Source: Rhodoligotrophos appendicifer
Lineage (GTDB): Bacteria; Pseudomonadota; Alphaproteobacteria; Rhizobiales; Im1
NCBI RefSeq assembly: GCF_007474605.1
Contig: NZ_VHKL01000004.1
Span: forward strand, 124,001-188,000
Direction: 5' to 3'
Length of the DNA stretch: 64,000 nt
In this document: piece after piece, positions 34,245 through 51,100 of the stretch
Position numbering within the stretch: position 1 is the first letter of the stretch
Layout: every line of letters begins with the position of its first letter
The notes under the pieces: model-generated
What the model saw: the letters and a program-made list of their open reading frames with translations, nothing else
What the model was told of the DNA's origin: nothing
Databases searched by the model: none
Position numbers and translations under genes: made by a program

Positions 34245-34338
34245 CTGGTTAACATCCTGGCGAAAAGTCCGCTCGAATCCCCGGCACAAGTCGGAGAAAC
34301 AGCCGTCGTGTGAAGTAGGAGCTTAGCGTTAGATAACA

Positions 34339-35166
34339 ATGTCAAGCGTAAGTAACCCCGCCCGAGACAGTTTGTCCGAACGGTTGAAGCAGCAGCGGCG
34401 ACGTTATGTAAAGCGCGCCGGCAAGACATTCATGCGGTTGCTCACGGATTTTTTTGGGCGGCAATCTGTTGTTGGCGATACGCCAGTCCTCGACACCAAA
34501 CATTTCCCATTCCTGGCGTCCTTCTCAGAGAACTGGACGACCATCCGAGCAGAGATCGATGAGATCCTGAAGCATCGCGAGGCCGTTCCCGCCTTTCAAG
34601 AAGTCTCGCCTGACCAGAAGCGAATCGCCAAAGGCACGAATTGGCGCACCTTCATTCTCTTTGGATTCGGTGAGAAGCTTCAGAAAAACTGTTCAAAGGC
34701 GCCGGTCACCACGGCCCTCCTGGAACAGATCCCAAACCTGCAGACGGCGTGGTTTTCAATCCTGGCGCCCGGCTACCACATTCCAGCCCACCGTGGAGTC
34801 TCTAAAGGAATCCTTCGGGCACATCTCGGCCTGATCGTCCCCAAAGATGCGGCCCGGTGCCGGCTTCGCGTCGATGACCAGATTTGCATTTGGCGCGAGG
34901 GAGAGATCTTCGTGTTCGATGACACCTTCGAGCACGAGGTGTGGAACGATACCGAAGAAGAGCGCGTGATTCTGTTGTTCGACTTCGATCGCCCGATGCA
35001 CTTCTGGGGCCGGGCGGTCAATGCCAGCTTCGTAAAGTTGTTGAAGCTCACCGCCTATTATCAGGAACCGCGGAAGAAGATGCAGAGTCTGGAGGACAGA
35101 TTCGAGGCGGTTACCCGGCGTGCAGACGCCAATCTGGAGCGTCTGGGCGACGAAACCGGCGGCTAA
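34339..35166 (+). CDS. Aspartyl/asparaginyl beta-hydroxylase-family dioxygenase (LpxO/OlsC-like)
   Basis: The 275-residue Fe(II)/2-oxoglutarate oxygenase shows HIPAHRGVSKGILRAHLGL, with likely iron ligand His151 and the 2-oxoglutarate-binding region, followed by the second His (about 199) in DDTFEHEVWNDT. The size and the single catalytic domain resemble LpxO (lipid A 2-hydroxylase) and OlsC (ornithine-lipid hydroxylase) rather than protein hydroxylases. Because the gene opens the sphingolipid island and precedes an ABC lipid-type exporter, I infer hydroxylation of a ceramide acyl chain or another envelope lipid. The substrate is not shown by sequence. Confidence 0.85.
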   Translation: MSSVSNPARDSLSERLKQQRRRYVKRAGKTFMRLLTDFFGRQSVVGDTPVLDTKHFPFLASFSENWTTIRAEIDEILKHREAVPAFQEVSPDQKRIAKGTNWRTFILFGFGEKLQKNCSKAPVTTALLEQIPNLQTAWFSILAPGYHIPAHRGVSKGILRAHLGLIVPKDAARCRLRVDDQICIWREGEIFVFDDTFEHEVWNDTEEERVILLFDFDRPMHFWGRAVNASFVKLLKLTAYYQEPRKKMQSLEDRFEAVTRRADANLERLGDETGG

Positions 35167-35230
35167 TTGGCACCGGCCTCACATCGACGTTGACTGTGGC
35201 GTGGCGCTCGTGGCTGGATGCGCCGCGAAT

Positions 35231-36949
35231 ATGTTAAACGTCCTCAAGATCTTTTTTACCGCCCGGGGCACAAGGCCGGGAATCATCCTGTTCTGCCTGA
35301 TTCTGGCTGGAATGTCGGAAGCGGTCAGTCTTGGTGCCCTTTTGCCGACCATTTCCCAAATCGGCGGCGGCGCCAGCGAACATACATCCGCGCTAAACCG
35401 ATTCGTCCTTGAGACATTGCTCAGCGCGGGAATTACGCCGACCCTCGGCAATCTGATCCTCGTCGTATCCGGTGCCCTCATCGTGAAGGCGGTTCTTTCC
35501 TTTGCCGCGCTCAGCTATGCAGGCATGTCGATCGCCGTCGTGCCGGCGAATTTGCGAACTCAGTTGCTGAACCAGCTCATGGAGGCGCGGTGGAGCTACT
35601 TCGTGAACCAGCGGATCGGCAGAATCGCTAACGCGATCAGCAATGACGCGACGCGAGCGGGGGATGCCTACTACGTCGCGGCGAAGTTCGTTTCGGCCAT
35701 TGCTCAGTCGAGTGTCTATATCATCGTCTCGCTTCTCATTTCCTGGAAGCTCGCCCTCGCCGGCCTGGTCGTCGGTCTCATCTTGATGCTCTCCCTCAAC
35801 GTCCTCGTACAGGTGTCGCGTCGGGCGGGATCTCGCCAGACAGATCGAACATCCGAGCTCGTCACCTATGTCTCGGACGCGTTCGCGAATATCAAACCTC
35901 TCAAGAGCATGAATCGGCAGGCTCCATTTTCGGCTCTGTTCGCGAGCAAGATCCGAAGTTTGCGGCGAGCACTCATAAAGAAGGTATTTGCGAAAAACGG
36001 CTTAACATACGGCGAGGAGGTGCTCACAGCGATCATGCTGGGCGCCAGCGTCTATCTCGCTGCGGACGTCTGGGAGATCCCGCTCGCCGAGCTGGTGGTG
36101 ATGGGCATCCTGTTTTACCAAGTCATTTCGGTCACCGGAAAAATCCAGCAGTACTACCAGAACGCGGTCGAACTGGAGAGCGCCTATTGGCGGATCTACG
36201 AGCTCATCGACGAGACCGCCGAGCAGCGCGAACCCGACACTGGCACCGTGATCCCGACCTTGCGCCAGGCCGTTGTTTTCGACGATGTGAGCTTCTCCTA
36301 TGGTGAGCGCCCCGTGGTGGAGCACGTGGATCTGAGCATCAATGCTGGAGAGATCACCGTCCTGCAGGGCCCCTCGGGAGCTGGAAAGACCACGCTGATG
36401 GACCTCCTTATTGGGCTCTATCATCCCAGCAGCGGCCGGGTCATGATCGATGGAGTTTCCATCCTAGACGTCAGGGTCAGTGCGTGGCGCAGCATGATCG
36501 GCTACGTCCCCCAGGAGATCAGCCTGCTGCACGGATCGATCTCGGACAACATCACCCTGGGCGACAAGAGTATAACCAGAGCCCAGATCATGCGCGCTTT
36601 GGAAAAAGCCGGCGCCGCAGACTTCATCGACGAGTTGCCCCACCATATCGACACGGTTGTTGGTGAGAGAGGCACGAAACTATCAGGCGGTCAGCGCCAG
36701 CGCATTGCTTTGGCCCGCGCCTTGGTGACCGATCCGAAGCTGCTGATCCTCGACGAGGTCACCAGCGCCCTCGATCCGGAGACGGAACTGGAGATCTGCA
36801 GAAACATCCAGATGCTTGGGGGCGAATATACCATTGCGGCGATCACGCACCGCCCCGCCTGGACGGCGATCGCCACCCGTTTATACCAGGTTTCCGCCGG
36901 ACGGGTGATCTCGCTGCCGACCGCTCGGGTCGACACTGTTCCGGCCTAA
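35231..36949 (+). CDS. ABC exporter, fused permease-ATPase (MsbA-like half transporter)
   Basis: The 572-residue half transporter has a six-helix membrane domain (about residues 15-320) and a nucleotide-binding domain with Walker A GPSGAGKT (about 380), signature LSGGQ (about 484) and Walker B LLILDEVTSALD. The layout matches exporters such as MsbA and PglK that flip lipids. ATG 35231 begins the first helix; the frame is open upstream and overlaps the dioxygenase gene. It lies 64 bp after the dioxygenase and 54 bp before the ceramide-synthase-like gene, which suggests export or flipping of a (hydroxy)sphingolipid or its precursor. Confidence 0.92.
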   Translation: MLNVLKIFFTARGTRPGIILFCLILAGMSEAVSLGALLPTISQIGGGASEHTSALNRFVLETLLSAGITPTLGNLILVVSGALIVKAVLSFAALSYAGMSIAVVPANLRTQLLNQLMEARWSYFVNQRIGRIANAISNDATRAGDAYYVAAKFVSAIAQSSVYIIVSLLISWKLALAGLVVGLILMLSLNVLVQVSRRAGSRQTDRTSELVTYVSDAFANIKPLKSMNRQAPFSALFASKIRSLRRALIKKVFAKNGLTYGEEVLTAIMLGASVYLAADVWEIPLAELVVMGILFYQVISVTGKIQQYYQNAVELESAYWRIYELIDETAEQREPDTGTVIPTLRQAVVFDDVSFSYGERPVVEHVDLSINAGEITVLQGPSGAGKTTLMDLLIGLYHPSSGRVMIDGVSILDVRVSAWRSMIGYVPQEISLLHGSISDNITLGDKSITRAQIMRALEKAGAADFIDELPHHIDTVVGERGTKLSGGQRQRIALARALVTDPKLLILDEVTSALDPETELEICRNIQMLGGEYTIAAITHRPAWTAIATRLYQVSAGRVISLPTARVDTVPA

Positions 36950-37003
36950 ACCAAGGCTATGGCAATTCAGATAGGCTGCGACGTCCTTGGAAAGTAAGCG
37001 CCT

Positions 37004-38137
37004 ATGACAATCAAGATTCGTCCGGTCACTTCAAAACAGGACCTTGACCAGTTCATCCAGGTCGCACGCACCGCCAATCGTGACGATCCGAATTGGATTC
37101 AGCCCCTGGCGTTTGAAAGGCGCGAGGTTCTTTCTCCCGGTAAAAATCCCTATTTCGAGCATGCCAAGGCCCAGCTCTTTCTCGCTGTCAGGGATGGGAC
37201 CCCAGTTGGGCGCATTTCCGCACAGGTGGACCAGCTGCATATCACCCATCATGCCGAACAGGCAGGACAGTTCGGTTTCCTTGAGGGCTTGGACGATCGC
37301 GAGATTTTCTCTTCCCTGATCGCGGCCGCAGAGGGCTTCCTGAAGGCCGAAGGGATGGAGATCGTCAGGGGCCCCTTCAGCTTTTCGGTAAATGAGGAAA
37401 CCGGGTTGCTGGTCGACGGCTTCGATTCGCCTCCGCGGGTGATGATGGGACACAATCCCCCCTATTACGCAACCCATCTCGATGCCCTCGGCTATGTCAA
37501 AGCCAAGGACGTCATTGCCTATGATTACGACGCGCGAACGCCCATGCCGCGTTCCATGGAGGCTATGCTCGAAAAGGTTCGCCGCTCCGGAGATCTTGTG
37601 GTCCGAACATTGTCGAAGAAGCGATTGTTCGAGGATCTCGATATCATCATCGATATTTTCAATGATGCGTGGAGCGACAACTGGGGCTTCGTACCCATGA
37701 CGCCGTCCGAAATCCAGCATATGGGCAATCAGCTGAAACTCCTTGTTGCCGAGGGCTACATTGCCATTGCGGAATATAAGGGCGTTCCCGCCGCCATGTC
37801 GGTCAGCCTGCCGGACGTCAATCGCTGGCTGCAGGGAATTGACGGTAAGCTGTTCCCCTTCAATTGGGCGCGTGTCCTCACTCGTGCCATGAGGGCACCA
37901 GAGGCCATCCGCATGCCATTGATGGGAGTAAGAAAGAAATATCAGAGCACGGCCGTGGGATCGGCCCTGGCGCTCGCGGTCATTGATGCAGTGCGCTCCT
38001 ATCATTCTCAACGCGGCACCTATCGCGCCGAGTTATCCTGGATCCTGGAGGACAACGCTGCCATGCGCCGAATGATCGAGCTGTTGGGCGCAACGCCGTA
38101 CAAGACCTATCGCATCTACGAGCGGAGCCTCGTTTGA
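37004..38137 (+). CDS. Bacterial ceramide synthase-like N-acyltransferase (GNAT superfamily)
   Basis: The 377-residue protein has two GNAT-like halves: an N-terminal part with IKIRPVTSKQDLDQFIQVARTANRDDPNWIQPL and GRISAQVDQLH, and a C-terminal part with RAELSWILEDNAAMRRMIELLGA. This is the family often mislabelled dATP pyrophosphohydrolase; its Caulobacter crescentus member is the bacterial ceramide synthase that N-acylates 3-ketosphinganine. No phosphohydrolase motif is present. The assignment rests on overall resemblance plus the presence of Spt, ACP, CerR-like and acyl-ACP synthetase genes 9-14 kb away. The stop overlaps the TTG start of the next gene. Confidence 0.7.
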   Translation: MTIKIRPVTSKQDLDQFIQVARTANRDDPNWIQPLAFERREVLSPGKNPYFEHAKAQLFLAVRDGTPVGRISAQVDQLHITHHAEQAGQFGFLEGLDDREIFSSLIAAAEGFLKAEGMEIVRGPFSFSVNEETGLLVDGFDSPPRVMMGHNPPYYATHLDALGYVKAKDVIAYDYDARTPMPRSMEAMLEKVRRSGDLVVRTLSKKRLFEDLDIIIDIFNDAWSDNWGFVPMTPSEIQHMGNQLKLLVAEGYIAIAEYKGVPAAMSVSLPDVNRWLQGIDGKLFPFNWARVLTRAMRAPEAIRMPLMGVRKKYQSTAVGSALALAVIDAVRSYHSQRGTYRAELSWILEDNAAMRRMIELLGATPYKTYRIYERSLV

Positions 38138-38952
38138 CCACCGAACCGCTATGGAAAGCTCTCGTGCTTGCCGCCGGCCGAGGGCCACATGACCCCATGG
38201 CCAAAGCCTATGATGTCTCGCACAAATGCGGCATCGAGATCGCAGGCATACCGATGCTGGTCCGAGTGCTGCAGGTACTCAGAAACTCTCCGCAGATTGG
38301 CGAGATCGTGATTTCGATCGACAGCCCGGAGATTGGCATCGACCTCGCGGAGCGGGCCCAGGTTGACGTCACCGTCATGCGTTCCTCCAGCAGCGCGCCG
38401 GCCTCGGTCATCGACGCCGCCGGGCAGATGACCTATCCGCTACTGGTGACGACTGCTGATCATCCCCTGCTCACTGTCGAGATGATCGACTATTTCATTA
38501 CTCGCTCATCAGCTTCAGGGGCCGACCTCACAGCCGGGCTTGCCTCTGCAGAAACGATCATGACAGCCTATCCGAGCTCGAAGCGCACATTCCTGCACTT
38601 TGCCGGGGACCGAGTGTCCGGGTGCAACCTCTTTGCATTGATGACGCCGCGGGCCCTTGCAGGAATAGCGTTCTGGGACCACCTCGACAAAGTCAGGAAG
38701 CAGCCCGCGAAGCTCATCGGTGCGTTCGGATTGCGCCCGCTGCTGCTCTATCTCCTTGGCCGCCTCAGCCTGGCACGCGCCTTCGAGGAGGCGTCTCGCC
38801 GGCTATCGCTCATTGCCCGACCGGTGCTCATGCCATTCGCAGAAGCCGCGATCGATGTGGACAAACCCGCCGATAAGGAGCTGGTCGAAGACATTTTTGC
38901 CGGTCGGAGCCGACCCGCTACCACTCCGCTACAAGCTGCCGCGCCTGAGTGA
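38134..38952 (+). CDS. MobA-like NTP transferase domain protein
   Basis: The 272-residue protein has a nucleotidyltransferase Rossmann-like core with ALVLAAGRGPHDPM at the N-terminus and a likely metal-binding region VTTADHPLLTVEM. In the usual GxGxR/K loop it has GRGPHDPMAK, so nucleotide binding is plausible. The C-terminal 70 residues are helical with a hydrophobic stretch, LRPLLLYLLGRLSLARAF, possibly membrane-associated. The start is TTG at 38134, overlapping the ceramide-synthase-like stop (TTGA), which implies coupling. I infer activation of a small alcohol phosphate or sugar for a sphingolipid head group. Confidence 0.75.
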   Translation: MTTEPLWKALVLAAGRGPHDPMAKAYDVSHKCGIEIAGIPMLVRVLQVLRNSPQIGEIVISIDSPEIGIDLAERAQVDVTVMRSSSSAPASVIDAAGQMTYPLLVTTADHPLLTVEMIDYFITRSSASGADLTAGLASAETIMTAYPSSKRTFLHFAGDRVSGCNLFALMTPRALAGIAFWDHLDKVRKQPAKLIGAFGLRPLLLYLLGRLSLARAFEEASRRLSLIARPVLMPFAEAAIDVDKPADKELVEDIFAGRSRPATTPLQAAAPE

Positions 38953-39646
38953 GATCCACGGGGAAATCCACCTCGCACCACTTCACGTCGCCGACGGGGG
39001 CAACATGGACCTCCATCTGCTTTGCCAGTGTGCCAATCGCCGAGGGAAACCATTGCTTCAAGGCGGCGGCATCGCGCATCGCGCGCTCCAAAACCTGCCG
39101 ATAGGCGCGCGCGCCGGCATTGCGAAAGATATAGATCCCGATTGCTTCGGCATCGACGGCTTCCAGGGGAAGGGTCTTGCCAATCTCCGTCAACCGCCCG
39201 CCGTCCAGCATGACCTTCATGTCATCGGCGTCATAGCGTTGCTTGTAATTGATTGCCGCGGTCACCGCATGTTCTGGTGCGGCAAGCAGCCGCTCCACCA
39301 AATCGGAGCGGAAGACGTTGTCTCCATTGACCTGAATGAAGTCCTCCTCCATCTCGGCACGCGCCATCCAGCAGCTCGCCAAATTATCGGCTACCGAATA
39401 GAAGGGATTGTAGACCGTGCGGATGGTCACCGACATGTCATTGGCCAACTCAGCGAGCGCTGTGTCCATTTGGTTGGCGGCATAGCCCGTGATGACCACG
39501 AACTCCGTGATACCGCAGGCGGCGAAAGCTTCGATCTGCCGAGCAATCAGGCGTTTCCCGCCAATATCGAGCAGGGCCTTCGGAATGTCCTCCGTGAGCG
39601 GCAAAAGCCGACTGCCCTGGCCCGCGCCAAGGATGAGAACTTTCAC
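38918..39646 (-). CDS. LicC-like sugar/choline-phosphate nucleotidyltransferase
   Basis: The 242-residue enzyme has the complete activation loop VLILGAGQGSRLLPLTEDIPKALLDI. It also has VYNPFYSVADNLASCWMA followed by FIQVNGDNVF, which is the LicC/phosphocholine cytidylyltransferase pattern rather than that of glucose-1-phosphate thymidylyltransferases. It should form an NDP-activated alcohol or sugar. It runs opposite to its neighbours and its 3' end overlaps the MobA-like gene by 35 bp tail to tail. Substrate and nucleotide cannot be decided from sequence. Confidence 0.82.
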   Translation of the reverse strand: MKVLILGAGQGSRLLPLTEDIPKALLDIGGKRLIARQIEAFAACGITEFVVITGYAANQMDTALAELANDMSVTIRTVYNPFYSVADNLASCWMARAEMEEDFIQVNGDNVFRSDLVERLLAAPEHAVTAAINYKQRYDADDMKVMLDGGRLTEIGKTLPLEAVDAEAIGIYIFRNAGARAYRQVLERAMRDAAALKQWFPSAIGTLAKQMEVHVAPVGDVKWCEVDFPVDLTQARQLVAEW

Positions 39647-39736
39647 TGGGCTGCCTTTCTGCTAGAAGCTGAGACCAACTCGGCACTTCAGATCGCACCA
39701 CACCGTTAACCTGTCAATGTTGTAAGCCAACTGTCA

Positions 39737-40696
39737 TTGATGTTCACCCTCGCCCAAATCTCCGATCCACACCTGGCGCCCATCAAGTCGCTCAGGCTGA
39801 AGGACTTGGCCACCAAGCGCTTCTATGGCTATCAGTCTTGGGTTCGCCGTCGGCGCTTCATCCACAGGCGCGACGTTGTCGATCTCATGGTGGAGGACAT
39901 TAAGCGCTTCAAAGTCGACCACATCGCGGTCACCGGCGATCTCGTCAACATCTCTATGAGAACAGAGTTCAAGGCCGCCGCCGAATGGCTCCGCAGCGTC
40001 GGCAGTGCCGAGGTTGTCAGCGTCATCCCAGGGAATCATGACGCCTATGTTCCCGTGAAATGGGAAAAGAGCCTCGGCCTGTGGCAGGACTACATGACGG
40101 GGGATATGTCCCCCGGCAAGGCGATGCTGGACAGCGAGGTTTTCCCCTATATACGGACGCGGCGGAATGTGGCGATCATCGGCTTGTCGACTGCCGTTCC
40201 CACACCTCCCCTGATCGCCTCTGGGCAGTTGGGCGCCAAGCAGTTGCATCGAATGGCCGAAATTCTGCCGATCCTCAAGGAGAAGGGCTTCTTCCGCGTG
40301 GTCCTCATCCATCATCCGCCACTTCCGGGAATGAACTCGCAGCGCAAGGCGCTGGCAGATGCGGCGCCGTTTCGCGATCTCCTGGAGCAGCATGGTGCGG
40401 AGCTCGTGCTGCATGGGCACAATCACGAGCATTCGCTCCGCCGGATTCCCGCTCGGGCCGGCTTCGTCCATGTGATTGGCATTCCTTCGGCTTCGGCCCT
40501 GGCTCGCAACGGCAAACCCGCAGCCGCTTGGTACAAGTACACTATTGGACGCGCCAACGGTGCTTGGCGCTGCAGCGTCACAATCCGCGGCTATAACGAG
40601 AAGAAGAAGCAATTTCAGGATGAGGATAGCTTCGACCTCGACCTCCATGGGGACGAGGTGAAACCCGGCCGTATTCTCATGCCCATCGCCACCTGA
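39737..40696 (+). CDS. Calcineurin-like metallophosphoesterase
   Basis: The 319-residue protein has the full two-metal set: ISDPHLAP, VTGDLVN, PGNHDAYVP, LIHHPPLPG and LHGHNHEH. It resembles class III phosphodiesterases and, more distantly, LpxH/LpxG-type hydrolases of nucleotide-linked lipids. With cytidylyltransferases on both sides, a role in cleaving a CDP-linked or phosphorylated sphingolipid intermediate is possible but inferred from context only. No signal peptide is seen, so it is cytosolic or peripheral to the membrane. Confidence 0.88.
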   Translation: MMFTLAQISDPHLAPIKSLRLKDLATKRFYGYQSWVRRRRFIHRRDVVDLMVEDIKRFKVDHIAVTGDLVNISMRTEFKAAAEWLRSVGSAEVVSVIPGNHDAYVPVKWEKSLGLWQDYMTGDMSPGKAMLDSEVFPYIRTRRNVAIIGLSTAVPTPPLIASGQLGAKQLHRMAEILPILKEKGFFRVVLIHHPPLPGMNSQRKALADAAPFRDLLEQHGAELVLHGHNHEHSLRRIPARAGFVHVIGIPSASALARNGKPAAAWYKYTIGRANGAWRCSVTIRGYNEKKKQFQDEDSFDLDLHGDEVKPGRILMPIAT

Positions 40697-40784
40697 GGCA
40701 TGGCTCCGCTGGCATTGTCGCCCGACAATAGGTATCTTGCCGGCGTCGTGGCGACATAGCCCTGCGCATGGCACGAGGAATGCG

Positions 40785-41234
40785 GTGAACGATACCCTGG
40801 AAAAATTTGGATATCCCGACACCCTGATCACGGCTTATGAGCATTGGTGCGTGTTGATGCGGCCCGCGCAGCCGACACTCGGTGCCTTGGTGCTTGTCCA
40901 TAAAGGTCCCGAGACCGCATTTGGCGACATCCCCGCAAATGCTTTTGCTGAACTTGCGACGGCAACCGCAGAGATCGAGGCCAGTCTCAAGACCTTTCGG
41001 CCGTTCGAGCGGATCAACTATCTGATGCTCATGATGGTGGATCCTCACGTCCATTTCCACGTCCTGCCCCGTTATTCGACGGCGCAAGTTTTCGAAGGCG
41101 TTTCCTTCCCCGATGTCGGGTGGCCTGGGGTGCCGCAACTCGGTTCCGCGATCACGCCCGATGCGGATCTGCGTCAAGCGTTGATCAACGCGTTGAGGGC
41201 CCATTGGGTCAGGGAGGTGGCGAGCGACCGTTGA
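40785..41234 (+). CDS. HIT-family nucleotide hydrolase/transferase
   Basis: The 149-residue protein has a HIT triad, DPHVHFHVLPRY, with the middle His as presumed nucleophile. HIT proteins cleave nucleoside phosphoramidates, dinucleoside polyphosphates or NDP-linked compounds. A GTG start at 40785 behind GAGGA (spacing about 6) is preferred, since the upstream ATG at 40737 adds sequence without family similarity. It stands 27 bp before lptF and about 90 bp after the phosphoesterase in the same orientation. Confidence 0.87.
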   Translation: MNDTLEKFGYPDTLITAYEHWCVLMRPAQPTLGALVLVHKGPETAFGDIPANAFAELATATAEIEASLKTFRPFERINYLMLMMVDPHVHFHVLPRYSTAQVFEGVSFPDVGWPGVPQLGSAITPDADLRQALINALRAHWVREVASDR

Positions 41235-41261
41235 TTACAGCGCTCGCTTGGCTCAACATAG

Positions 41262-42467
41262 ATGTTCATCGCTTCACGATATATCCTGCGACAGATCGCA
41301 ACCCCGCTTCTAGGGGCGATGGCTATCGGCCTGCTGGTGCTGCTTGCCGAGCGACTGGTGCGGCTCCTTGACTTCACTCTGGGAAAGAAGAACTCTTTCG
41401 CCATCGTCTTCGAGATGCTCGCCTATCTGGTGCCGCATTATCTTGGATTGGCCGTACCGGCCGCCCTGTTTCTCGGTCTCCTGTTCGGGTTCAACAAACT
41501 GTCGCGCAACAGCGAACTTGACGCATTCCTGGCATCGGGCGTCGGGCTGCATCAATTGGTGCGACCAGTCCTGATCCTGGCGACTATTCTCATGGTCGCC
41601 TCCTTTGCGATATTCGGGTGGCTGCAGCCGCATGCGCGCTATGCGTATCGTGCGGTCTTGTTCACCGTGAAGAATGTTGACATCTTCTACCTTGCCGAAG
41701 AAGGCGTGTTCATGCAGGCGGGGAAGCGAACCTTCATCCTGGACAAGCTGGAGCGCGGCACCAACAAGTTCGAGCGGATCTTCCTGTTTGAGGATATGGG
41801 GGCAAAGGGCAGTGAAACCGTCACGGCCCGGAGCGGCCAGCTGGTGGATGTCCCCGGGGAACCGCGTCCTGTGCTCCGCTTGCAGAATGGGCATCGACTC
41901 CGCGTCGAGGGCCAACCCGGGAAGGATCCCGCCAACCCCACGCCGCAGCAGGTGGTTGGCGACTTTCAGGTTGGGGAGACGCCGCTGGGAAGCGCCGCGG
42001 ATCGGTTCTTCAGACCACGCGGTGAAGACGAGCGCGAATTGACCCTTGCGGAGCTGTTCAATCCGGCGACGGTCATACCGGCGGGGTCATCCAACGCAAA
42101 AATGCGGGCGGAACTTCATAAGCGGCTCGTCAATATCCTGTCCATCCCCATCCTGACCTTCCTAGCCGTGCCCTTCGCCCTAGGCCGGCGACGTGGCATG
42201 CGGGGCTATCGGTTCGGCGTCGCGCTGGTCATCCTCATCGCCTATCATGAAATCATCGAGCAGGGCGCCGTGATCGTTCAGGTGGACAAGGCATCGCCTT
42301 ATCTGATGCTGTGGCTGCCGTTCGTCTTGCTCACGGTGTTCTCCGGTTACCGATATTACCGGGTCTGCTTCACCGTTCCGTCCGAGTGGCTCGAGCCGGT
42401 GATCGACCGCTTCAATGACTGGATTCGAGCCAACTTCCGACGACTCCGGCCGGCGAGGAGCCGATGA
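41262..42467 (+). CDS. lptF: LptF-like ABC transporter permease
   Basis: The 401-residue protein of the YjgP/YjgQ family has three N-terminal helices (from RYILRQIATPLLGAMAIGLLVLLAERLVRLL), a periplasmic beta-jellyroll of roughly 160 residues and three C-terminal helices (LSIPILTFLAVPFALG region). LptF pairs with LptG and the ATPase LptB to extract lipopolysaccharide. Here the pair stands between a HIT gene and the sphingolipid head-group genes, not beside lptD, surA and pdxA as in other alphaproteobacteria. It may therefore be a paralogue devoted to sphingolipid. It overlaps lptG by ATGA. Confidence 0.88.
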   Translation: MFIASRYILRQIATPLLGAMAIGLLVLLAERLVRLLDFTLGKKNSFAIVFEMLAYLVPHYLGLAVPAALFLGLLFGFNKLSRNSELDAFLASGVGLHQLVRPVLILATILMVASFAIFGWLQPHARYAYRAVLFTVKNVDIFYLAEEGVFMQAGKRTFILDKLERGTNKFERIFLFEDMGAKGSETVTARSGQLVDVPGEPRPVLRLQNGHRLRVEGQPGKDPANPTPQQVVGDFQVGETPLGSAADRFFRPRGEDERELTLAELFNPATVIPAGSSNAKMRAELHKRLVNILSIPILTFLAVPFALGRRRGMRGYRFGVALVILIAYHEIIEQGAVIVQVDKASPYLMLWLPFVLLTVFSGYRYYRVCFTVPSEWLEPVIDRFNDWIRANFRRLRPARSR

Positions 42468-43540: not shown

Positions 43541-43609
43541 GTCCCTTTCCTCACGTCCCGAAGCGGGGTATGGAAGGACATCCTGAAATTAGAAGGCCGC
43601 AAGCTGCGC

Positions 43610-44848
43610 ATGGTATCCTCTCCGCTTGCTTTAGACAGCTCCGCAGATCGCAAGCGGCCAGATATGCCACGGCAGGATCAGGGCAGCAGCCCTCTTCGTC
43701 AGACCCCGGTCCTGTGCTTCGTCGGTGATCCCGGGCCGCCCCTGTTCGGCCTTACGCTCACCGAGCGTCTCACACGCCAATTTGGGCGTGCTGGCATTAC
43801 GGATATCGTCGTTGCCGACGCTCTGGGCGCCATTCGTCGGCCCGTCATCATGGTGCGTGCGGATGCGGTCATCGATCAGCCCCTCATACAGCTCCTCGTC
43901 CAACGTTGTGACTTCGTTCTTCTCGATGGCACGGACGACGCGGTGCCCCTCGCAGCCCATGTGAACGCCGAGCACGTGGCATCAGCTGCTTTTGTCCTCA
44001 GTCGCGGCAATCTGCATGCGTTGCCGGAGGCACTGGAGGCGGATGCGCCGGCTAACCTGCACATCGCCTTCTGGTCGGCGCTTCGGAAGCGGGAAACTCC
44101 GTATGCCATGCTGGTCGCTCCGGATAGCGCGCGGGCCGTCGAATGGCGCATGTTCATGGGGACGTATAAGGGGGCGACCGACATCGTCACAAAATTTGTC
44201 TGGCCACGGCCGGCTTATTGGGTGACCAGAGCGATCGCTCCATTCGACATCACGCCAAACATGGTCACGACCATCGCCGCAATGATGACGGTGGCAGCCT
44301 TCATGCTGTTCCTCGACGGCCAGTTCGCGTGGGGCCTTGCTGCAGCCTGGGCCATGACTTTTCTTGATACTGTGGACGGCAAACTTGCGCGTCTCACGAT
44401 GACATCCTCCAAATGGGGCGACATCTTCGATCACGGCATTGACCTCATCCATCCGCCCTTCTGGTACATTGCGTGGGGATTTGGGTTGAGTGTGAGCGGG
44501 CATGCCTTGAGCGCACCCGCACTCACATGGACGTTGGTCCTCATCTTCGGCGGCTATGTCTTGCAGCGGATCATGGAGGGGATCGCGATCAAGGTGCTGA
44601 AGCTCGAGATCCACATTTGGCGCCCCATAGATACGCTCTTCAGGCAAGTGACCGCCCGACGTAACCCCAACCTCGTCCTTCTGACGGTCTCCGTGCTTTT
44701 CGGACGCCCCGACATCGGTCTCATTGCGGTGGCTGGCTGGACCATGATCTGTCTGGTCCTGCATGGTATCCAGCTTGTCCAAGCCCTGATTGCGCGCCGC
44801 AGTGGGCCCTTGACCTCTTGGATGCGCACTCCCGTCCCCGCCCGATGA
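43610..44848 (+). CDS. CDP-alcohol phosphotransferase with degenerate N-terminal nucleotidyltransferase domain
   Basis: The 412-residue protein has two parts. Residues about 200-400 form a membrane CDP-alcohol phosphotransferase with an intact motif D-G-x2-A-R-x8-G-x3-D-x3-D (DG at 256-257, AR at 260-261, G270, D274, D278), preceded by ITPNMVT. Residues about 30-195 resemble the cytidylyltransferase half of bifunctional inositol-phosphate enzymes (GLTLTERLTRQFGRAGI, then MFMGTYKGATDIV before the membrane part) but lack the G-x-G-x-R activation loop, so this half is probably inactive. It overlaps the lipid-kinase gene by ATGA. I infer transfer of a head group to or from a CDP-activated sphingolipid. 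ATG 43664 is an alternative start. Confidence 0.85.
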   Translation: MVSSPLALDSSADRKRPDMPRQDQGSSPLRQTPVLCFVGDPGPPLFGLTLTERLTRQFGRAGITDIVVADALGAIRRPVIMVRADAVIDQPLIQLLVQRCDFVLLDGTDDAVPLAAHVNAEHVASAAFVLSRGNLHALPEALEADAPANLHIAFWSALRKRETPYAMLVAPDSARAVEWRMFMGTYKGATDIVTKFVWPRPAYWVTRAIAPFDITPNMVTTIAAMMTVAAFMLFLDGQFAWGLAAAWAMTFLDTVDGKLARLTMTSSKWGDIFDHGIDLIHPPFWYIAWGFGLSVSGHALSAPALTWTLVLIFGGYVLQRIMEGIAIKVLKLEIHIWRPIDTLFRQVTARRNPNLVLLTVSVLFGRPDIGLIAVAGWTMICLVLHGIQLVQALIARRSGPLTSWMRTPVPAR

Positions 44849-45810
44849 GCGTCGGGCTCATCGTCAATCCAAAGGCGCGCCGCGCCAGCGCCAAGGGTCT
44901 GGCCTTGGCACATTTGGTCGCCGGCAAGCGCGATGTCCATGTGCGGGTCCTCGATTCATTTTCAGAACTCGACGCGGTCCTCCAGGATTTTTCCATCGGG
45001 CGGGTCGAAACGATTTTTGTCAGCTCCGGGGACGGCACAGTGCAGGCCATCCAGACTGCGCTTGGAGAGAGCTCCCCCTTTTCCGCTCTGCCCAGACTGG
45101 CATTGCTGCCGCATGGAACGACGAACATGAACGCCGCCGATGTCGGGCTCAATGGGCTCAGTCTCGAACGGATCGCTGCCTTGATGCAGGCGCCGGACCT
45201 GCTCAGACGCTGGCCGTCGATTCAAAAGAGGCATACGCTGCGGGTGGTTAATCCACGCCATCGGACACCGCAGCATGGTATGTTCTTCGGGACCGGTGCT
45301 CTCGCTCACGCGGCGTTGCAGACCCAGCGACAGCTCAATAACAGGGGAGTCGGCGGACACATCGCCCCCGCCGTTACGCTCATCCGTTCCATGTCGAAGC
45401 TCCTGTTCTCCAAACCCGCTCCGAATGACATCAGCAGAATCGATCGCCCCCATTCCCTCGACGTCTTCGGGGATGGCGAGCTCAAATGCTCCGGTGATCA
45501 GTTGTTGCTCCTGGCGACAACCCTTAGGAAGCTGGTGCTTGGATCGACGCCCTTCTGGGGCGGCAGGACGGCCCCTATCCGCACGACAGTCATCCCCTAT
45601 CCGCCACCAAATATTTTACGCCACATCCTGCCGATCATGTATGGGAGCGAGGCGGCTGCCCGGCCAGAGGGATGCATCAGCTTCGGCTCCGCAGTGGTGG
45701 AGATCGAAACGCGCGCTCCATTCCTCATTGATGGAGAATTCTTCGACCCTCCATCCGAGGAACCGCTGAGGATCGAGACGGGCGTCGAATTCGAGTATCT
45801 CTGCCGGTAG
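44845..45810 (+). CDS. DAGK/LCB5-family lipid kinase, probable ceramide kinase
   Basis: The 321-residue kinase of the diacylglycerol/sphingosine kinase family has the N-terminal GLIVNPKARR, the nucleotide-binding VSSGDGTVQAI (GDGT at residues 62-65), ALLPHGTTNMNA, and a C-terminal beta domain with FLIDGEFF. A member of this family in the Caulobacter sphingolipid locus phosphorylates ceramide, and position between a CDP-alcohol phosphotransferase and a Tam41-like gene supports the same role here. The start overlaps the preceding stop (ATGA); the stop is 40 bp before the next gene. Confidence 0.82.
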   Translation: MSVGLIVNPKARRASAKGLALAHLVAGKRDVHVRVLDSFSELDAVLQDFSIGRVETIFVSSGDGTVQAIQTALGESSPFSALPRLALLPHGTTNMNAADVGLNGLSLERIAALMQAPDLLRRWPSIQKRHTLRVVNPRHRTPQHGMFFGTGALAHAALQTQRQLNNRGVGGHIAPAVTLIRSMSKLLFSKPAPNDISRIDRPHSLDVFGDGELKCSGDQLLLLATTLRKLVLGSTPFWGGRTAPIRTTVIPYPPPNILRHILPIMYGSEAAARPEGCISFGSAVVEIETRAPFLIDGEFFDPPSEEPLRIETGVEFEYLCR

Positions 45811-45850
45811 CGAAAGGGCTCCAACTGTCCGAGGTTTAGGATCGAGGGTG

Positions 45851-46747
45851 ATGACTTCCGCAAGGGCGACCGAACGACCGTCTGCGCTGTGCGAGCTGGT
45901 GAATGCCGCCGTTTCGCGGCCCGTGTCTCTGTCCATCCTGGCTCTGGGGGAGGCTGCACGCGCGCGCCATGGCGAAGGGGTTGAGGCAGTCCTTGCCTAT
46001 GGTTCTTGCCTCCGAGGGATCGATCCGCGGGAGACCCTAGCCGATCTTTATGTCCTGACGTCGAGCTCCGCAGATGTCAGTCGCAGTGCGTTGAGCCGCC
46101 TTGGCTGTCGCCTGCTGCCTCCGAATGTCTATTACCTCGAGTTGCCGTTCGAGGGGCTGGAATTTCGAGCCAAATACGCGGTCCTGCCGCTCAGCCAATT
46201 CGAAGAGTGGGTCCAGCCCAAGACCGATAACCCCTATTTCTGGGCCCGGTTTTCCCAGCCCAGCGCGCTCCTCTGGACACGGGACGAGCCCGCGAGGGAG
46301 CGCGTCATCGCCGGCATCGCTTGCGCGATCACGACCATGGTGGGTGAAGCCCGGCGTCTCAGCCCCAGCGGTGATGCCCCCGCCGCTTGGGAAGCTGTGT
46401 TGCGGGAAACCTATGCAACAGAATTACGATCGGAAGGCGGAAGCCGGGGTCGCAGCATCATCGCTGCAGATAATGACTGGTATGAGCAGGTCTTCTCCGC
46501 CGCCGGAGCAAGCGCGCCGGCGAGAGGCGCAAACTGGGCCCGACGGCGGCGGCGGGGCAAACTTCTTGCGATGCTGCGCCTGCTCAAGGCAGCCTTCACG
46601 TTTCAAGGGGGTGCCGATTATCTCGCCTGGAAAATCGAGCGCCATTCCAGAGTGAAGGTCGACCTCAGTCCGTGGCAGCGGCGCCATCCGATCATCGCAT
46701 CGCTTTGGCTTGTTCCGAAGCTCTATCGTCGCGGCGCCTTCCGCTAG
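45851..46747 (+). CDS. Tam41-like cytidylyltransferase family protein
   Basis: The 298-residue protein has a nucleotidyltransferase start VLAYGSCLRG followed by ADLYVL as possible carboxylate region. The downstream pattern FRAKYAVLPLSQFEEWV, WEAVLRETYATELRSEGGSRGR and an RRHPIIASLWLVPKLY tail resembles Tam41, the mitochondrial CDP-diacylglycerol synthase. One expected Asp of a GSxxxxxD pattern is shifted, so activity is uncertain. After a ceramide kinase and a CDP-alcohol phosphotransferase, formation of CDP-ceramide is an attractive inference. ATG 45851 after GAGG is used; GTG 45848 is one codon upstream. It is convergent with spt, 2 bp between stops. Confidence 0.65.
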   Translation: MTSARATERPSALCELVNAAVSRPVSLSILALGEAARARHGEGVEAVLAYGSCLRGIDPRETLADLYVLTSSSADVSRSALSRLGCRLLPPNVYYLELPFEGLEFRAKYAVLPLSQFEEWVQPKTDNPYFWARFSQPSALLWTRDEPARERVIAGIACAITTMVGEARRLSPSGDAPAAWEAVLRETYATELRSEGGSRGRSIIAADNDWYEQVFSAAGASAPARGANWARRRRRGKLLAMLRLLKAAFTFQGGADYLAWKIERHSRVKVDLSPWQRRHPIIASLWLVPKLYRRGAFR

Positions 46748-46749
46748 TG

Positions 46750-47973
46750 TCAGGCGCCGACCGCGGCCAGTTGGGGCCGTGCGACCACTTCGGCGAACAA
46801 GGAAATTATGCGATCGATTTCCTCGCTGGTATGGGCGGCCGAGACGGAGCAGCGCAGCAGACAGATGCGGTTGGGCGTGCCCGGCGGCAGCGCGATGTTT
46901 ACATAGACGCCCGCTTGCAGCAGGGCATGCCACATGGCGATGGTGGAGGGTTCGTCAGGCCCCTTCACCGCGATCACCGGGCTCACTTGGTCACAACCCA
47001 GCTCGAGACCCAGATCGAGAAAGCCTTGGTACAGACGCTCCGAGTTACGTCGAAGGCGCTCGCGCCGCTGGGGCTCGGCCCTCAATACGCGTACCGCAGC
47101 CGTCGCCGTCGCCACGCTCGAAGGCGAGGAGGAGGCTGTGAACATATAAGGTCTTGAAGCGTAGCGGATCATATCGAACATAGGATGATCGCCGGCACCG
47201 AACCCGCCGATCGCGCCGACGCTCTTGGAGAAGGTGCCCACCACCACATCGACATCCGATTCGACGCCCGCTTCTTCCTGAAGCCCACGGCCATTTTCGC
47301 CAAGAACGCCGAAGGAATGGGCTTCGTCGACCATCAGCGTGAAGTCGTGGCGATGCTTGACTTCGACGAACTCCTTCAGCGGCGCTCGATCGCCGAGCAT
47401 GGAGTAGATTCCCTCCAGCACGACCAGCCGTCCACCCTTGCCGTTCTCATCGCGGTCGGCGCGCGCCAGACGCTTGTCCAGGTCGTCGGGGTCATTATGA
47501 CGGAAGCGCACCAGCTTGGCGCCAGAGAGGGTGCAGCCATCATAAATTGATGAATGGCTATCGGCATCGAGGAAGACGGTGTCGTTGGGACCCGCTAGCC
47601 CTGCGATCATTCCGAGATTGGCCTGGTAGCCGGTGGTAAAGGCGATGCAATGCTTGCGATTCAGGAATTCCGCCAGCTCCTGCTCGAGTTCCCGATGGAT
47701 CCCATACGAGCCATTGGCAATGCGCGATCCGGTTGTCCCCGTCCCAAATTCGTCGAGAGCGGCCTTGCCGGCCTCGATGCACTCCTTCTCGAAGGTGACG
47801 CCCATATAGTTGTTCGTGCCCGCAAGGATGGTCTCGCGGCCGTTGATCAAGGCGCGGGTGGGCGAGAGCATCCGTTCCATGGTAATGCCCACGGCGTTGT
47901 CGCCGGCTGTGAGCGTCATCATATGGCCGTAGCGCGCCGCAACATCGCGATGCTTGTCGAACAGATCCGCCAT
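46750..47973 (-). CDS. spt: Serine palmitoyltransferase
   Basis: Spt condenses serine with an acyl thioester to 3-ketosphinganine, the first step of sphingolipid synthesis. The 407-residue alpha-oxoamine synthase has the typical RETILAGTNNYMG and GTGTTGSRIANGSYG segments, DEAHSFG (Asp217 contacts the PLP pyridine) and the PLP Lys250 in GTFSKSVGAIGG. The family also includes KBL and BioF. The specific call rests on the adjacent ACP, CerR-like reductase and acyl-ACP synthetase genes in the order known from Caulobacter. The start at 47973 is one base after the ACP stop, so coupling is likely. Confidence 0.9.
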   Translation of the reverse strand: MADLFDKHRDVAARYGHMMTLTAGDNAVGITMERMLSPTRALINGRETILAGTNNYMGVTFEKECIEAGKAALDEFGTGTTGSRIANGSYGIHRELEQELAEFLNRKHCIAFTTGYQANLGMIAGLAGPNDTVFLDADSHSSIYDGCTLSGAKLVRFRHNDPDDLDKRLARADRDENGKGGRLVVLEGIYSMLGDRAPLKEFVEVKHRHDFTLMVDEAHSFGVLGENGRGLQEEAGVESDVDVVVGTFSKSVGAIGGFGAGDHPMFDMIRYASRPYMFTASSSPSSVATATAAVRVLRAEPQRRERLRRNSERLYQGFLDLGLELGCDQVSPVIAVKGPDEPSTIAMWHALLQAGVYVNIALPPGTPNRICLLRCSVSAAHTSEEIDRIISLFAEVVARPQLAAVGA

Positions 47974-47974
47974 G

Positions 47975-48229
47975 TCAGGCGCCCTCTTCCAAACGCTGCT
48001 GCACAACCATCGTCAGATCATCCAAGGTTCGTGTCTCCGATAGAAGATTGAGCGGAATATCGATGTCGTACTCGTCTTCGATCTCCATCACGAAATCCAT
48101 CACAGCCACCGAGTCGATCGCGAGATCATTAGCGATGTCCGTACTCGGCTCGATCTCCAAGCCTTTCGTATTGAACGGCTCGATCAGCTGGCAGAGCTTC
48201 GCAAAGATCTGCTCCTTTGTCTCGCTCAT
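47975..48229 (-). CDS. Dedicated acyl carrier protein for sphingolipid synthesis
   Basis: The 84-residue ACP has the phosphopantetheine Ser40 in the motif DLAIDSVAVMDFV followed by an acidic helix II (EIEDEYDIDIPLN). DSV replaces the DSL usual in fatty-acid-synthase ACPs, a hint of a specialised carrier. It is encoded between the CerR-like gene and spt and should carry the acyl chain from the acyl-ACP synthetase to Spt. The ATG at 48229 has GGAG upstream; longer starts lack this. Confidence 0.92.
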   Translation of the reverse strand: MSETKEQIFAKLCQLIEPFNTKGLEIEPSTDIANDLAIDSVAVMDFVMEIEDEYDIDIPLNLLSETRTLDDLTMVVQQRLEEGA

Positions 48230-48286
48230 GGTGGCCGTCTCCGTGGTTGGCATCCTCTTTGGCACCGTCTTACCTCGCGTTACCTC

Positions 48287-49216
48287 TCAGGACAACCAAC
48301 CCTCCGCTCGATACCAGGCGAGCGTCTCGGAGAAGCCCCTGGCAAAGGGGACGTTCGGCGACCACTCGGTCAATTCGTCCAGCAGATCGTTCCGACAGAC
48401 CCAGTCACGGTGATAGAGCTCCGCGACCTTGCCCGGCGTCAGCATGGGAACGGCTCCCGTGAGGCCGCTCCAGAAGCCCAGTCCAGCAGTTGCCGTCGAG
48501 AGCAACGGGCGAGGAATGAAGAGACAGCGCCCTGACTTTTCCCCGGTTGCCGCCACCTTGAGATCTTCCCAGCTGTACCCACCGCGTCTTCCGTCATCTA
48601 GTTCGACGATGCGCCCGTCGATGGAGGCATCAGCAATCAGATGGTCTATCGCGGATACCAGATCGACCACATGGATCAGCGACACTCGCGCATCATGATG
48701 TCCCGGAATAAGCGACAGTCGCCGCCGCAGCTGATCCACCAGCGGCAGGGTGCCGCGGTCGCCAGGACCATAGACCGCAGGAGGCCGCAAGATCACCCAG
48801 CGAGGCTCCGAGATACCAACGAGTGCCTGCTCGCCCCTATGTTTGCTTGCGCCGTAACTCGACAAATTCGGCTCACGTGCGGCCAAGGACGACAACAAGA
48901 TAATCCTTCGAACCCCCGCGCGACGCGCCCTTTCAACCAACAAAACCGTCGCGGTCGAGTTCACAGCATCATATTCTGCGGCAGTCCGCGCCGTGATCAG
49001 GCCGGCACAGTGAACGAGAATTTCAGCGCCCGCACAGAGTTCGTCCAAGGCATCGCGATCAGCGAGATCTCCCGACACCACATGCACATCTTCCGGGGGC
49101 GGGCGCTTCCCGCCGCGCATGAGGAGGCGAAGATCGTGACCCCCTTCGCTAAGGCGAGCGACAAGGTGGGAACCGACGAAACCGCTCCCGCCCGTAACGG
49201 CGATTGTCGCGGTCAC
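48287..49216 (-). CDS. CerR-like NAD(P)-dependent reductase (extended SDR)
   Basis: The 309-residue extended short-chain dehydrogenase/epimerase has the nucleotide loop TGGSGFVG (residues 8-15), the catalytic Ser110 region LLSSLAA and Tyr121-x3-Lys125 (SYGASKHRGE). In the Caulobacter ceramide pathway the gene at this position (CerR) reduces the 3-keto group of the ceramide precursor, which is the role inferred here. Start is GTG 49216 after AGGGAAGGG. Gaps of 36 bp to the synthetase and 57 bp to the ACP indicate one operon. Confidence 0.87.
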   Translation of the reverse strand: MTATIAVTGGSGFVGSHLVARLSEGGHDLRLLMRGGKRPPPEDVHVVSGDLADRDALDELCAGAEILVHCAGLITARTAAEYDAVNSTATVLLVERARRAGVRRIILLSSLAAREPNLSSYGASKHRGEQALVGISEPRWVILRPPAVYGPGDRGTLPLVDQLRRRLSLIPGHHDARVSLIHVVDLVSAIDHLIADASIDGRIVELDDGRRGGYSWEDLKVAATGEKSGRCLFIPRPLLSTATAGLGFWSGLTGAVPMLTPGKVAELYHRDWVCRNDLLDELTEWSPNVPFARGFSETLAWYRAEGWLS

Positions 49217-49252
49217 CCCTTCCCTATCGCGCTCAGCACTGGCTTATCTCGC

Positions 49253-51100
49253 TTATTCCGCAGCGACCGCACGAACCGGAACCGACACCCGGCCCGTCAC
49301 GAAATCAGTCCCGCGAGAGATCTCGGCGATCTCGCCGGTCAAGTATTTCAACTTGGCTCCTGCGCGGGACAGCTTGCCGGAGGACGTGAATGGCAGGCTG
49401 CGCGGCGGAACGAGGACGATGGCGCCATCAACACCGACCGTCGTGCGCACGATGCCGGCAACTTCACGACGAAGAGCCTCCTGACTCGTAGCGTCTTGGT
49501 GGCGGCATTGGACCAGGACGATGATCTCATCTTCCCCTGCGGGGCCTTCCACCGAGAAGGCCGCAACATCGTCGGACCGTAGAGAGGGAAGCTGTTCGAC
49601 CGCCCATTCAATATCCTGGGGCCAGATATTCCGGCCATTATGCAGGATCAAATCCTTGCTTCGGCCCGTGATGACGATCTCGCCGTCCAGCCAGTAGCCC
49701 ATATCGCCCGTGGACATCCAGCCATTGCGATCAATGACAGCGGCGGTTGCATCCTCGTTACGGAAATAACCACTCATCATGCTGCCGCCGCGCACGCGGA
49801 TATGGCCAATCTGGCGCTCGCCTAGGATGATCCCCTCGTCGTCGCAGACCTCCACTTCGTAACCGGGAAGGGGCTTACCACATACGACGAAGGCGCGTGT
49901 CTGAACCGTGGCGCTGACATTCTGCGCATCGACCGGGACGGCGCGCCGCGACTGCTTATAGTGAGCGGTGTCGATCACATCCACACGGATCGGCACAGTG
50001 CAGTCGGAGATCGCGATCGCCAGAGTGGTCTCGGCCATCCCATAGCTCGGCGAGAAAGCGCGGGCATCGAAACCCGCCACTTCGAGCTTCTCGGCAAAGA
50101 ATTCAAGAATATCGGAGCGGACCATATCGCCGCCAATTCCGGCAATTCTCCATGAGGACAGGTCGAGTTCGACCGCCTGACCATTGATCCGACGTGCCGC
50201 AAGATCATAGCCAAAGCTCGGACTGAACGAGATGGTGGAGCGGTTCTCCGACATCAGTTGCAGCCACAAAGCCGGACGGCGGGCGAAGGAGGGTGTCGCC
50301 AGATAATCGACAGTCACCTGGCTCGCCATGGGCGTCAGGCAGAAACCGACGAGGCCCATATCGTGGTAGAGCGGTAGCCAGGAGAAGGCTCGATCCGCCG
50401 AGGTGATCTGCATCCCATGCACCACAGTGGTGCGGATGTTGTTCATGATCGCAGCCTGGCTGATCAACACGCCTTTGGGATGCGACGTCGAGCCGGAGGA
50501 ATATTGAATGTAAGCATCCTCGTGGGCCGCAAAGGGTTGCAATTCCCCTTCGAAGGGCGCCAAGGCCGCTAACTCGTTGTGGCTCAGGACGATCTCGGTG
50601 CCCGCGCGCTCGCCGGCCTCACGCAGATACGCCAGGAGGGGCTCCGGGGCGATCGCAGCCGTTGCCGCTGCGCTGTTCAGCATGCCCGTGACGCGGTCCA
50701 CATAGGCATCCCGACCGCCAATATACATCGTGTAAGGCATTGGGCAGGGGATCAGGCCCGCATATTGGCAACCGTAAAAGACGCTCACGAAATCCGGCGT
50801 CGTCTCGGCTACAACCGCGACCCTATCGCCCCGCTTCAGTCCGAGAGACAGGAGACGGCGCGCGACAGCGATGGCGCGCTGACGGAGCCGGGAATAAGGA
50901 AGGGCATGTTCGATCTGGCCGCGCGGCGAGTAAAAGTTAAAGCCTGTCACCCCACGAGCCGCGTAATCGAGCGCATCCGCGAGGGTCGGGAACTCTCCCT
51001 TCTTCTGCGGAAGATCATGGTTCGAACGAGGCGTTGGTTTCGTCAGATCGCGCGTCTCGTTCGCGCCGTTCGCCAATTCCCCCACAAGTCCCCCATTCAT
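49253..51100 (-). CDS. Fatty acyl-AMP ligase / acyl-ACP synthetase of the sphingolipid operon
   Basis: The protein of about 615 residues is an adenylate-forming enzyme of the FAAL-like class: P-loop YIQYSSGSTSHPKGV, LPLYHDMGLVGF, a GMAETTLA A5 motif, STGDMGYW and the hinge region ITGRSKDLILHNGRN, with the C-terminal catalytic Lys in TSSGKLSR. It activates a fatty acid and probably loads it on the ACP encoded two genes downstream. The start is uncertain: ATG 51100 is chosen, and the frame is open to 51193. It is the first gene of the synthetase-reductase-ACP-spt operon. Confidence 0.88.
   Translation of the reverse strand: MNGGLVGELANGANETRDLTKPTPRSNHDLPQKKGEFPTLADALDYAARGVTGFNFYSPRGQIEHALPYSRLRQRAIAVARRLLSLGLKRGDRVAVVAETTPDFVSVFYGCQYAGLIPCPMPYTMYIGGRDAYVDRVTGMLNSAAATAAIAPEPLLAYLREAGERAGTEIVLSHNELAALAPFEGELQPFAAHEDAYIQYSSGSTSHPKGVLISQAAIMNNIRTTVVHGMQITSADRAFSWLPLYHDMGLVGFCLTPMASQVTVDYLATPSFARRPALWLQLMSENRSTISFSPSFGYDLAARRINGQAVELDLSSWRIAGIGGDMVRSDILEFFAEKLEVAGFDARAFSPSYGMAETTLAIAISDCTVPIRVDVIDTAHYKQSRRAVPVDAQNVSATVQTRAFVVCGKPLPGYEVEVCDDEGIILGERQIGHIRVRGGSMMSGYFRNEDATAAVIDRNGWMSTGDMGYWLDGEIVITGRSKDLILHNGRNIWPQDIEWAVEQLPSLRSDDVAAFSVEGPAGEDEIIVLVQCRHQDATSQEALRREVAGIVRTTVGVDGAIVLVPPRSLPFTSSGKLSRAGAKLKYLTGEIAEISRGTDFVTGRVSVPVRAVAAE

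Follow-up and report, generated by a model that had tools for sequence, protein, structure and literature searches.

A Caulobacter-type sphingolipid block holds the sole LptF/LptG pair of Rhodoligotrophos appendicifer and may have taken the place of lipopolysaccharide

We analysed a 64,000-nucleotide stretch of the draft genome of Rhodoligotrophos appendicifer (the window; contig NZ_VHKL01000004.1, positions 124,001 to 188,000), in which genes for the synthesis and export of a phosphosphingolipid form a compact island at positions 34339-51100. Judged from its genes, the island is the same system as the ceramide and ceramide-diphosphoglycerate cluster CC_1152-CC_1168 of Caulobacter crescentus, and a locus of this kind is already known. 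What is most interesting escaped the preliminary description of this DNA: LpxC and LpxB are both absent from the genome, and the LptF/LptG pair of the island is its only one. The reading that we favour, with a probability of roughly 0.72, is that a modified phosphosphingolipid replaces lipopolysaccharide (LPS) in this lineage and is carried by the Lpt bridge with a swapped LptF/LptG pair, the island being a Caulobacter-type factory joined to an export unit. The genome (G000; 5.59 Mb, 33 contigs, 100% complete, with the window on contig C4) was compared with 385 genomes of the class and 199 genomes of the order. G- and f-numbers denote sampled genomes and families, f1 being the family of G000, and L-numbers denote individual gene loci; Aestuariivirga (f195) and Methylopila are members of sampled families within the same order, Hyphomicrobiales. 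The ceramide synthase CerS served as island marker in the genome-wide searches of relatives.

All genes named in the preliminary description were located within positions 34339-51100. The Caulobacter-type ceramide set is represented by 5 of 5 genes. Four lie on the minus strand: the predicted serine palmitoyltransferase Spt (46750-47973; equivalog model NF047599, 588 bits against a cut-off of 500), the specialised acyl carrier protein AcpR (47975-48229; PF00550, 1.1e-9, with a DSV motif in the translation), the SDR-type ceramide reductase CerR (48287-49216; PF01370, 5.1e-27, and synteny) and the FAAL-like acyl-ACP synthetase AasR (49253-51100; fatty acyl-AMP ligase model NF006624, 764 bits against 600). 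The fifth, the GNAT-type bacterial ceramide synthase CerS, lies on the plus strand (37004-38137), and its relatives, at 28-74% identity, are mostly found inside spt islands. Corrected probable starts are near 35231 for the ABC gene, near 47973 for Spt and at 51100 for AasR.

The Caulobacter-type CPG2 head-group set is likewise complete, assigned by protein type and gene order rather than by direct alignment to Caulobacter sequences. It comprises a CofC/MobA-like nucleotidyltransferase of the CC_1153 type (38134-38952, plus; PF12804, 7.5e-11, and synteny with CerS), a CpgD-like CTP:phosphoglycerate cytidylyltransferase of the CC_1152 type tail to tail with it (38918-39646, minus; PF00483, 1.1e-14), whose best solved relative is the CTP:phosphocholine cytidylyltransferase 1jyk, a metallophosphoesterase, CC_1158 type by role (39737-40696, plus; PF00149, 1.3e-11), a CDP-alcohol phosphotransferase of the CC_1159 type with an N-terminal extension and a full catalytic motif in the translation (43610-44848, plus; PF01066, 2.1e-12), and a ceramide kinase CpgB of the CC_1160 type with a DAGK domain and a glycine-rich GDGT motif (44845-45810, plus, start inferred; PF00781, 1.8e-11). 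The sixth member is a Tam41-like cytidylyltransferase of the CC_1161/CpgC type (45851-46747, plus), for which a Pfam scan gave no family match; a weak PF09139 match appears in 3 of 25 relatives. Its AlphaFold model (pLDDT 89) has the solved Tam41 structures 6ig2 and 7ecd as top Foldseek matches with probability 1.00, and this fold match is consistent with a step that activates ceramide-1-phosphate by CTP.

Three genes are predicted to serve transport. An ABC exporter with TMD and NBD in one chain (35231-36949, plus, start inferred from the translation; PF00005, PF00664) is a candidate flippase, and in Methylopila-type islands its gene adjoins aasR, the position of the published flippase CC_1166. 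The label "MsbA-like" given to it earlier is merely generic: the protein reaches 241 of the 602 bits required by TIGR02203, and we rejected MsbA itself as an assignment. The permeases, which we call LptF2 (41262-42467, plus) and LptG2 (42464-43540, plus), both match PF03739 and fall in the island clade of their trees. The HIT-type protein (40737-41234, plus), listed earlier as one of the block's genes, lies between the phosphoesterase and lptF and scores 20.1 bits, just under the PF01230 cut-off of 21.5. It was found at 46-65% identity in the same phosphoesterase/lptF gap in alpha-, beta- and gammaproteobacterial islands; should it correspond to CC_1157, called "probably unrelated" in the literature, that description may have to be reconsidered.

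The remaining gene within these positions encodes an AspH/OlsC-like 2-oxoglutarate hydroxylase, a predicted lipid acyl hydroxylase (34339-35166, plus; PF05118, 1.2e-53). Gene content and synteny indicate that the conserved block extends past both ends. Divergent from aspH is a gene for a DegT/DnrJ/EryC1-type pyridoxal phosphate aminotransferase (33006-34289, minus; PF01041, 2.6e-36), a probable extra member, and on the other side stands a gene for a 178-residue protein (51405-51941, minus), which follows aasR in LpxC-less islands. The latter protein has a long N-terminal helix, a small beta domain and a C-terminal membrane helix (model pLDDT 86.5), no Pfam match and nothing significant in a PDB fold search. 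Among the fetched loci it has 16 relatives, and every one whose genome was tested is from an LpxC-less genome. Just past the block, a BcsS-like predicted outer membrane protein (PF17036; 52306-53118, plus) recurs in the same place in f1, f208 and f179. From strand and spacing, four transcription units are likely: one from aspH through the CofC-like gene (plus), one of cpgD (minus), one from the phosphoesterase through the Tam41-like gene (plus) and one from aasR through spt (minus).

The 17-gene cluster CC_1168-CC_1152 of Caulobacter crescentus devotes five genes to ceramide and six to its phosphoglycerate and diphosphoglycerate forms; LptC2/LptF2/LptG2 and a potential flippase also belong to it (Olea-Ozuna et al. 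2024, PMC11324152). Published characterisations exist for two of its enzymes, the kinase CpgB and the cytidylyltransferase CpgD (PMC10331486, PMC12275187). Orthologues of the cluster occur in Hyphomonas, Sphingomonas, Zymomonas, Nitrosomonas, Azotobacter and Pseudomonas luteola (PMC11324152). The island shares with it the five ceramide genes, the ceramide kinase, the Tam41-like enzyme, the CDP-alcohol phosphotransferase, the phosphoesterase, the two nucleotidyltransferases, the second-type LptF/LptG and the predicted flippase (PMC11324152). It differs in its rearranged gene order and in the added AspH and DegT; LptC2 was not found, and the sole LptC of G000 sits in the lptC-lptA-lptB operon. 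The proposal in the preliminary description that the block is one functional system for phosphosphingolipid synthesis and export is thus well supported, by synteny and by what has been published on the Caulobacter homologues, both mutants and enzymes (PMC11324152, PMC10331486, PMC12275187). The preliminary description erred in suggesting that the exporter and the two permeases lie outside the described set, since LptF2/LptG2 and a potential flippase already belong to the published Caulobacter cluster (PMC11324152).

Relatives of CerS are present in 51 of the 385 genomes of the class and 48 of the 199 of the order. The block from DegT-AspH to AasR is collinear in f1, f209, f210 (G461), f218 and f179 (G439, up to the contig end), with proteins about 35-80% identical, and this recurrence of one gene order in several families at such identities argues that the block is not a chance assembly. 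In f208 it is present without AspH and DegT in it, and beta- and gammaproteobacterial islands have the same genes in different orders. Aestuariivirga has a reduced island with neither of the nucleotidyltransferase genes (CofC and CpgD) nor those for the CDP-alcohol phosphotransferase and the Tam41-like enzyme, which suggests that the head group may differ there. These f195 islands (L076-L079, L089-L090, L093-L094) keep the phosphoesterase and usually the kinase; in G406 of the same family most of the missing head-group genes are present in another arrangement. A plasmid search with CerS returned relatives below 60% identity only.

LpxC is present in 167 of the 199 genomes of the order and was not found by genome search in G000 or any other sampled member of its family (two genus mates and one family mate), two of these genomes being closed. 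LpxB is absent from 22 of 22 LpxC-less island genomes tested, including G000 and the closed family genomes, and present in 11 of 12 LpxC-positive controls (the exception, G390, is 94% complete). The absence of both LpxC and LpxB suggests that G000 probably makes no LPS and is an LPS-free diderm. LpxC and LpxB might instead be present in a form too divergent to detect or lie in assembly gaps, as the draft state of G000 in 33 contigs would allow; we regard this as extremely unlikely, given that the two closed family genomes also lack both, that the E. coli and C. vibrioides search controls were positive and that other families of the order were detected at E values near 1e-100. The loss is associated with the sphingolipid island: among the 27 genomes whose CerS is at least 48% identical, 21 have no LpxC (Fisher test for the order, 2e-15), and at class level LpxC is absent in 28 of 51 CerS genomes compared with 29 of 334 others (1e-13). 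One alternative is that this is an ordinary bacterium with LPS, that the block is simply a further instance of the ceramide-diphosphoglycerate cluster known from Caulobacter, and that AspH and DegT lie next to it without being related to it. Nearly every gene does have a Caulobacter counterpart (PMC11324152), and f179 relatives with the same island retain LpxC. We nevertheless consider this alternative very improbable, because LpxC and LpxB are missing from G000 and its family, AspH is repeatedly linked to CerS islands in a clade confined to CerS-positive genomes, and the pairing of DegT with AspH persists where the two genes lie outside the island.

The sole LptF/LptG pair of G000 found by genome search is the island pair. 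In the canonical arrangement, LptB2FGC-A-DE with a lptF-lptG-lptD-surA-pdxA-ksgA operon, lptF-lptG adjoins lptD, as it does in 12 of 12 LpxC-positive loci examined. In 8 of 8 LpxC-less island genomes examined, lptD-surA-pdxA-ksgA has no adjacent lptFG. G000 agrees with the canonical system in keeping lptA, lptB, lptC and lptD, with lptD still beside surA-pdxA-ksgA on contig C12 and lptC-lptA-lptB-rpoN intact on C1; it differs in that LptF/G are replaced by the island type and LpxC/LpxB are gone. Retention of the bridge is general: among 22 LpxC-less island genomes tested, LptD was found in 21 (the miss is a 61% complete bin) and LptC in 21. In G473, a closed genome of the family of G000, LptD is split over two separate open frames (L209, G473:C1:4131058-4132187), a frameshift by mutation or by sequencing error. 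Trees place the island pairs apart from the LPS-type pairs, with 100/99 support for the LptF split, and the window pair falls in the island group; three divergent island LptF from other classes fall elsewhere in the LptF tree. The window proteins score below the cut-offs of the canonical LPS pair (LptF 220.6 against 230 for TIGR04407, LptG 211 against 240 for TIGR04408), by small margins, and one LPS-type LptF is also narrowly under its cut-off. Some bins of f208-f210 have extra LptF/G matches not assigned to either type.

With the sole copy of LptF/G located within the block, the sphingolipid and its exporter probably took over from LPS. The retained bridge with LptF2/G2 might on the other hand carry lipoproteins or a glycolipid of another kind, for example, instead of a sphingolipid; the position of the pair in the island would then be merely historical. 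Lpt without LPS is known in other diderms, with lipoprotein or glycolipid cargo proposed (PMC11784454). This explanation seems to us unlikely, since the surviving pair is both island-located and island-type, since genomes with LPS and the island hold both types of pair, and since f222, without LpxC and CerS, has lost the tested Lpt parts. The three f222 genomes (G433, G469, G502) have no LpxC, LpxB, LptF/G, LptC, LptD or CerS and are apparently both LPS-free and Lpt-free without this sphingolipid system.

Relatives that hold both pairs suggest how the swap may have proceeded. In family f179, LpxC and the island occur along with both LptF/G pairs, and the family groups inside the LPS-free clade on the LptD-SurA-PdxA-KsgA tree; one LPS loss compared with two in this large clade gave p = 0.235 in the approximately unbiased test, neither being rejected. 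In a genus of Methylopilaceae, LpxC was found in G418 (Methylopila turkensis) and in G458, each of which has four LptF/G matches, an LPS-type pair beside lptD and an island pair. G492, of the same genus, has no LpxC and no LpxB; its lptD-surA-pdxA-ksgA stands without lptFG and the island pair alone is kept. In G572, also of Methylopilaceae, the lptD locus is as in G492 and only a weaker LpxC match was found. By these genomic patterns, the same state of LPS loss and permease exchange is shared by several related families of Hyphomicrobiales and had a separate origin within Methylopilaceae. We think it reasonably probable that LPS was replaced in a Hyphomicrobiales branch and again in Methylopilaceae, with the older LptB-C-A-D bridge passing to LptF2/G2 and the lpx genes and the LPS-type pair being deleted together. 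The LpxC-bearing relatives with both pairs (f179 and several Methylopila) would then represent the intermediate state, and AspH/DegT and the 178-residue membrane protein would be new parts of the LPS-replacement system.

The hydroxylase was rightly placed beyond the known ceramide set. PF05118 occurs in a single gene of G000, aspH, and in none of C. vibrioides, and N-acyl hydroxylation in Caulobacter involves a different, DesA-type protein, CC_0202 (PMC11324152). The alignment of the window protein to human AspH covers the His/His/Arg region and, as judged from it, the two iron-binding histidines and the 2-oxoglutarate-binding arginine. The protein resembles the LpxO and OlsC hydroxylases, which share the AspH fold, in its PF05118 domain with an aligned catalytic region; it differs in its scores, 130 of 500 bits for LpxO and 227 of 450 for OlsC, and we rejected both equivalog assignments. 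The co-occurrence check proposed in the preliminary description, run for AspH with CerS, bears out the association: in the order, 25 of 48 CerS genomes have full-length AspH compared with 8 of 151 others (both 25, AspH only 8, CerS only 23, neither 143; Fisher 4e-12). In the AspH tree, the window protein sits in a clade of 29 rows (99/89) drawn solely from CerS-positive genomes or islands. The AspHs of CerS-negative relatives fall outside it, and one of them, from an LPS-making relative, is LpxO-type (G361, 437 bits to LpxO). DegT adjoins aspH in f1, f209, f210 (G461), f218, f179 (G439) and L138, the DegT-AspH pair stays together away from the island in f208 (L245, L249), and in gamma- and betaproteobacterial islands AspH takes other positions; in L150 and L189, for example, its gene is flanked by those for the CofC-like and CpgD-like enzymes. 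Our best guess from these patterns is that AspH hydroxylates an acyl chain of ceramide. A different substrate, for example ornithine lipid as for OlsC, is possible but less likely; the best NCBIfam model is indeed OlsC, though well under its cut-off, and the restriction of the clade to ceramide-synthase genomes and the island linkage in several families and in beta- and gammaproteobacteria argue for ceramide.

Taken by analogy with the Caulobacter homologues, the block would work as follows. AasR would load a fatty acid onto AcpR, Spt would join the AcpR-borne acyl group to serine, and CerS and CerR would complete the ceramide. The kinase would make ceramide-1-phosphate, to which the Tam41-like enzyme, the two nucleotidyltransferases, the CDP-alcohol phosphotransferase and the phosphoesterase would add phosphoglycerate units. 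AspH, often with DegT, would modify the lipid, most likely by hydroxylation of an acyl chain. The ABC exporter would flip it across the inner membrane, and LptF2/LptG2 with the retained LptB, LptC, LptA and LptD would carry it to the outer membrane, where it would take the place of LPS. What genomes can reveal here is gene content, synteny, phylogeny, the absence of LpxC and LpxB, the loss of LPS-type LptF/G and the retention of the rest of Lpt; from these we infer the phosphosphingolipid as Lpt cargo, its replacement of LPS at the surface and the chemistry of AspH and DegT.

Several points weigh against this interpretation. LPS loss is judged on LpxC and LpxB, LpxA, LpxD, LpxK and the KDO transferase WaaA being unsearched. 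The Fisher tests for LpxC/CerS and AspH/CerS ignore shared ancestry, and the independent swap events that can be named are two, in the large clade and in Methylopilaceae. AspH is missing from some LPS-less island genomes (e.g. G450) and lies off the island in f208. Finally, Terrabacteria and Spirochaetes that lost LPS have kept Lpt, with other cargo proposed for it (PMC11784454), and another cargo is therefore conceivable here.

An established precedent exists in Sphingomonas: Sphingomonas and Zymomonas make sphingolipids without LPS and keep LptC/F/G-type orthologues (PMC11324152, PMC10964400). The genes there are scattered over 6 to 10 genome regions, whereas here they form one block, in Hyphomicrobiales; the sphingolipids known in Sphingomonas are glycosphingolipids, whereas a phosphoglycerate head group is predicted here. 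We found no paper on LPS-free Hyphomicrobiales or on sphingomonad Lpt use in the open literature, which does not imply that none exists; within the searchable part of it, the features that appear to be new are the spread to Hyphomicrobiales, the gathering of the genes in one compact block, the exchange of the permease pair and the AspH subfamily. The route by which bacterial sphingolipids reach the outer membrane has been stated to be unknown (PMC11324152). These genomes would offer a natural deletion in which the LPS-type permease pair and the lpx genes are gone and the sphingolipid-type pair and LptD are kept, which makes the hypothesis of sphingolipid transport directly testable, and related species are available in three states, with LPS only, both, or sphingolipid only. 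The finding would widen the range of LPS-free proteobacteria beyond Sphingomonas.

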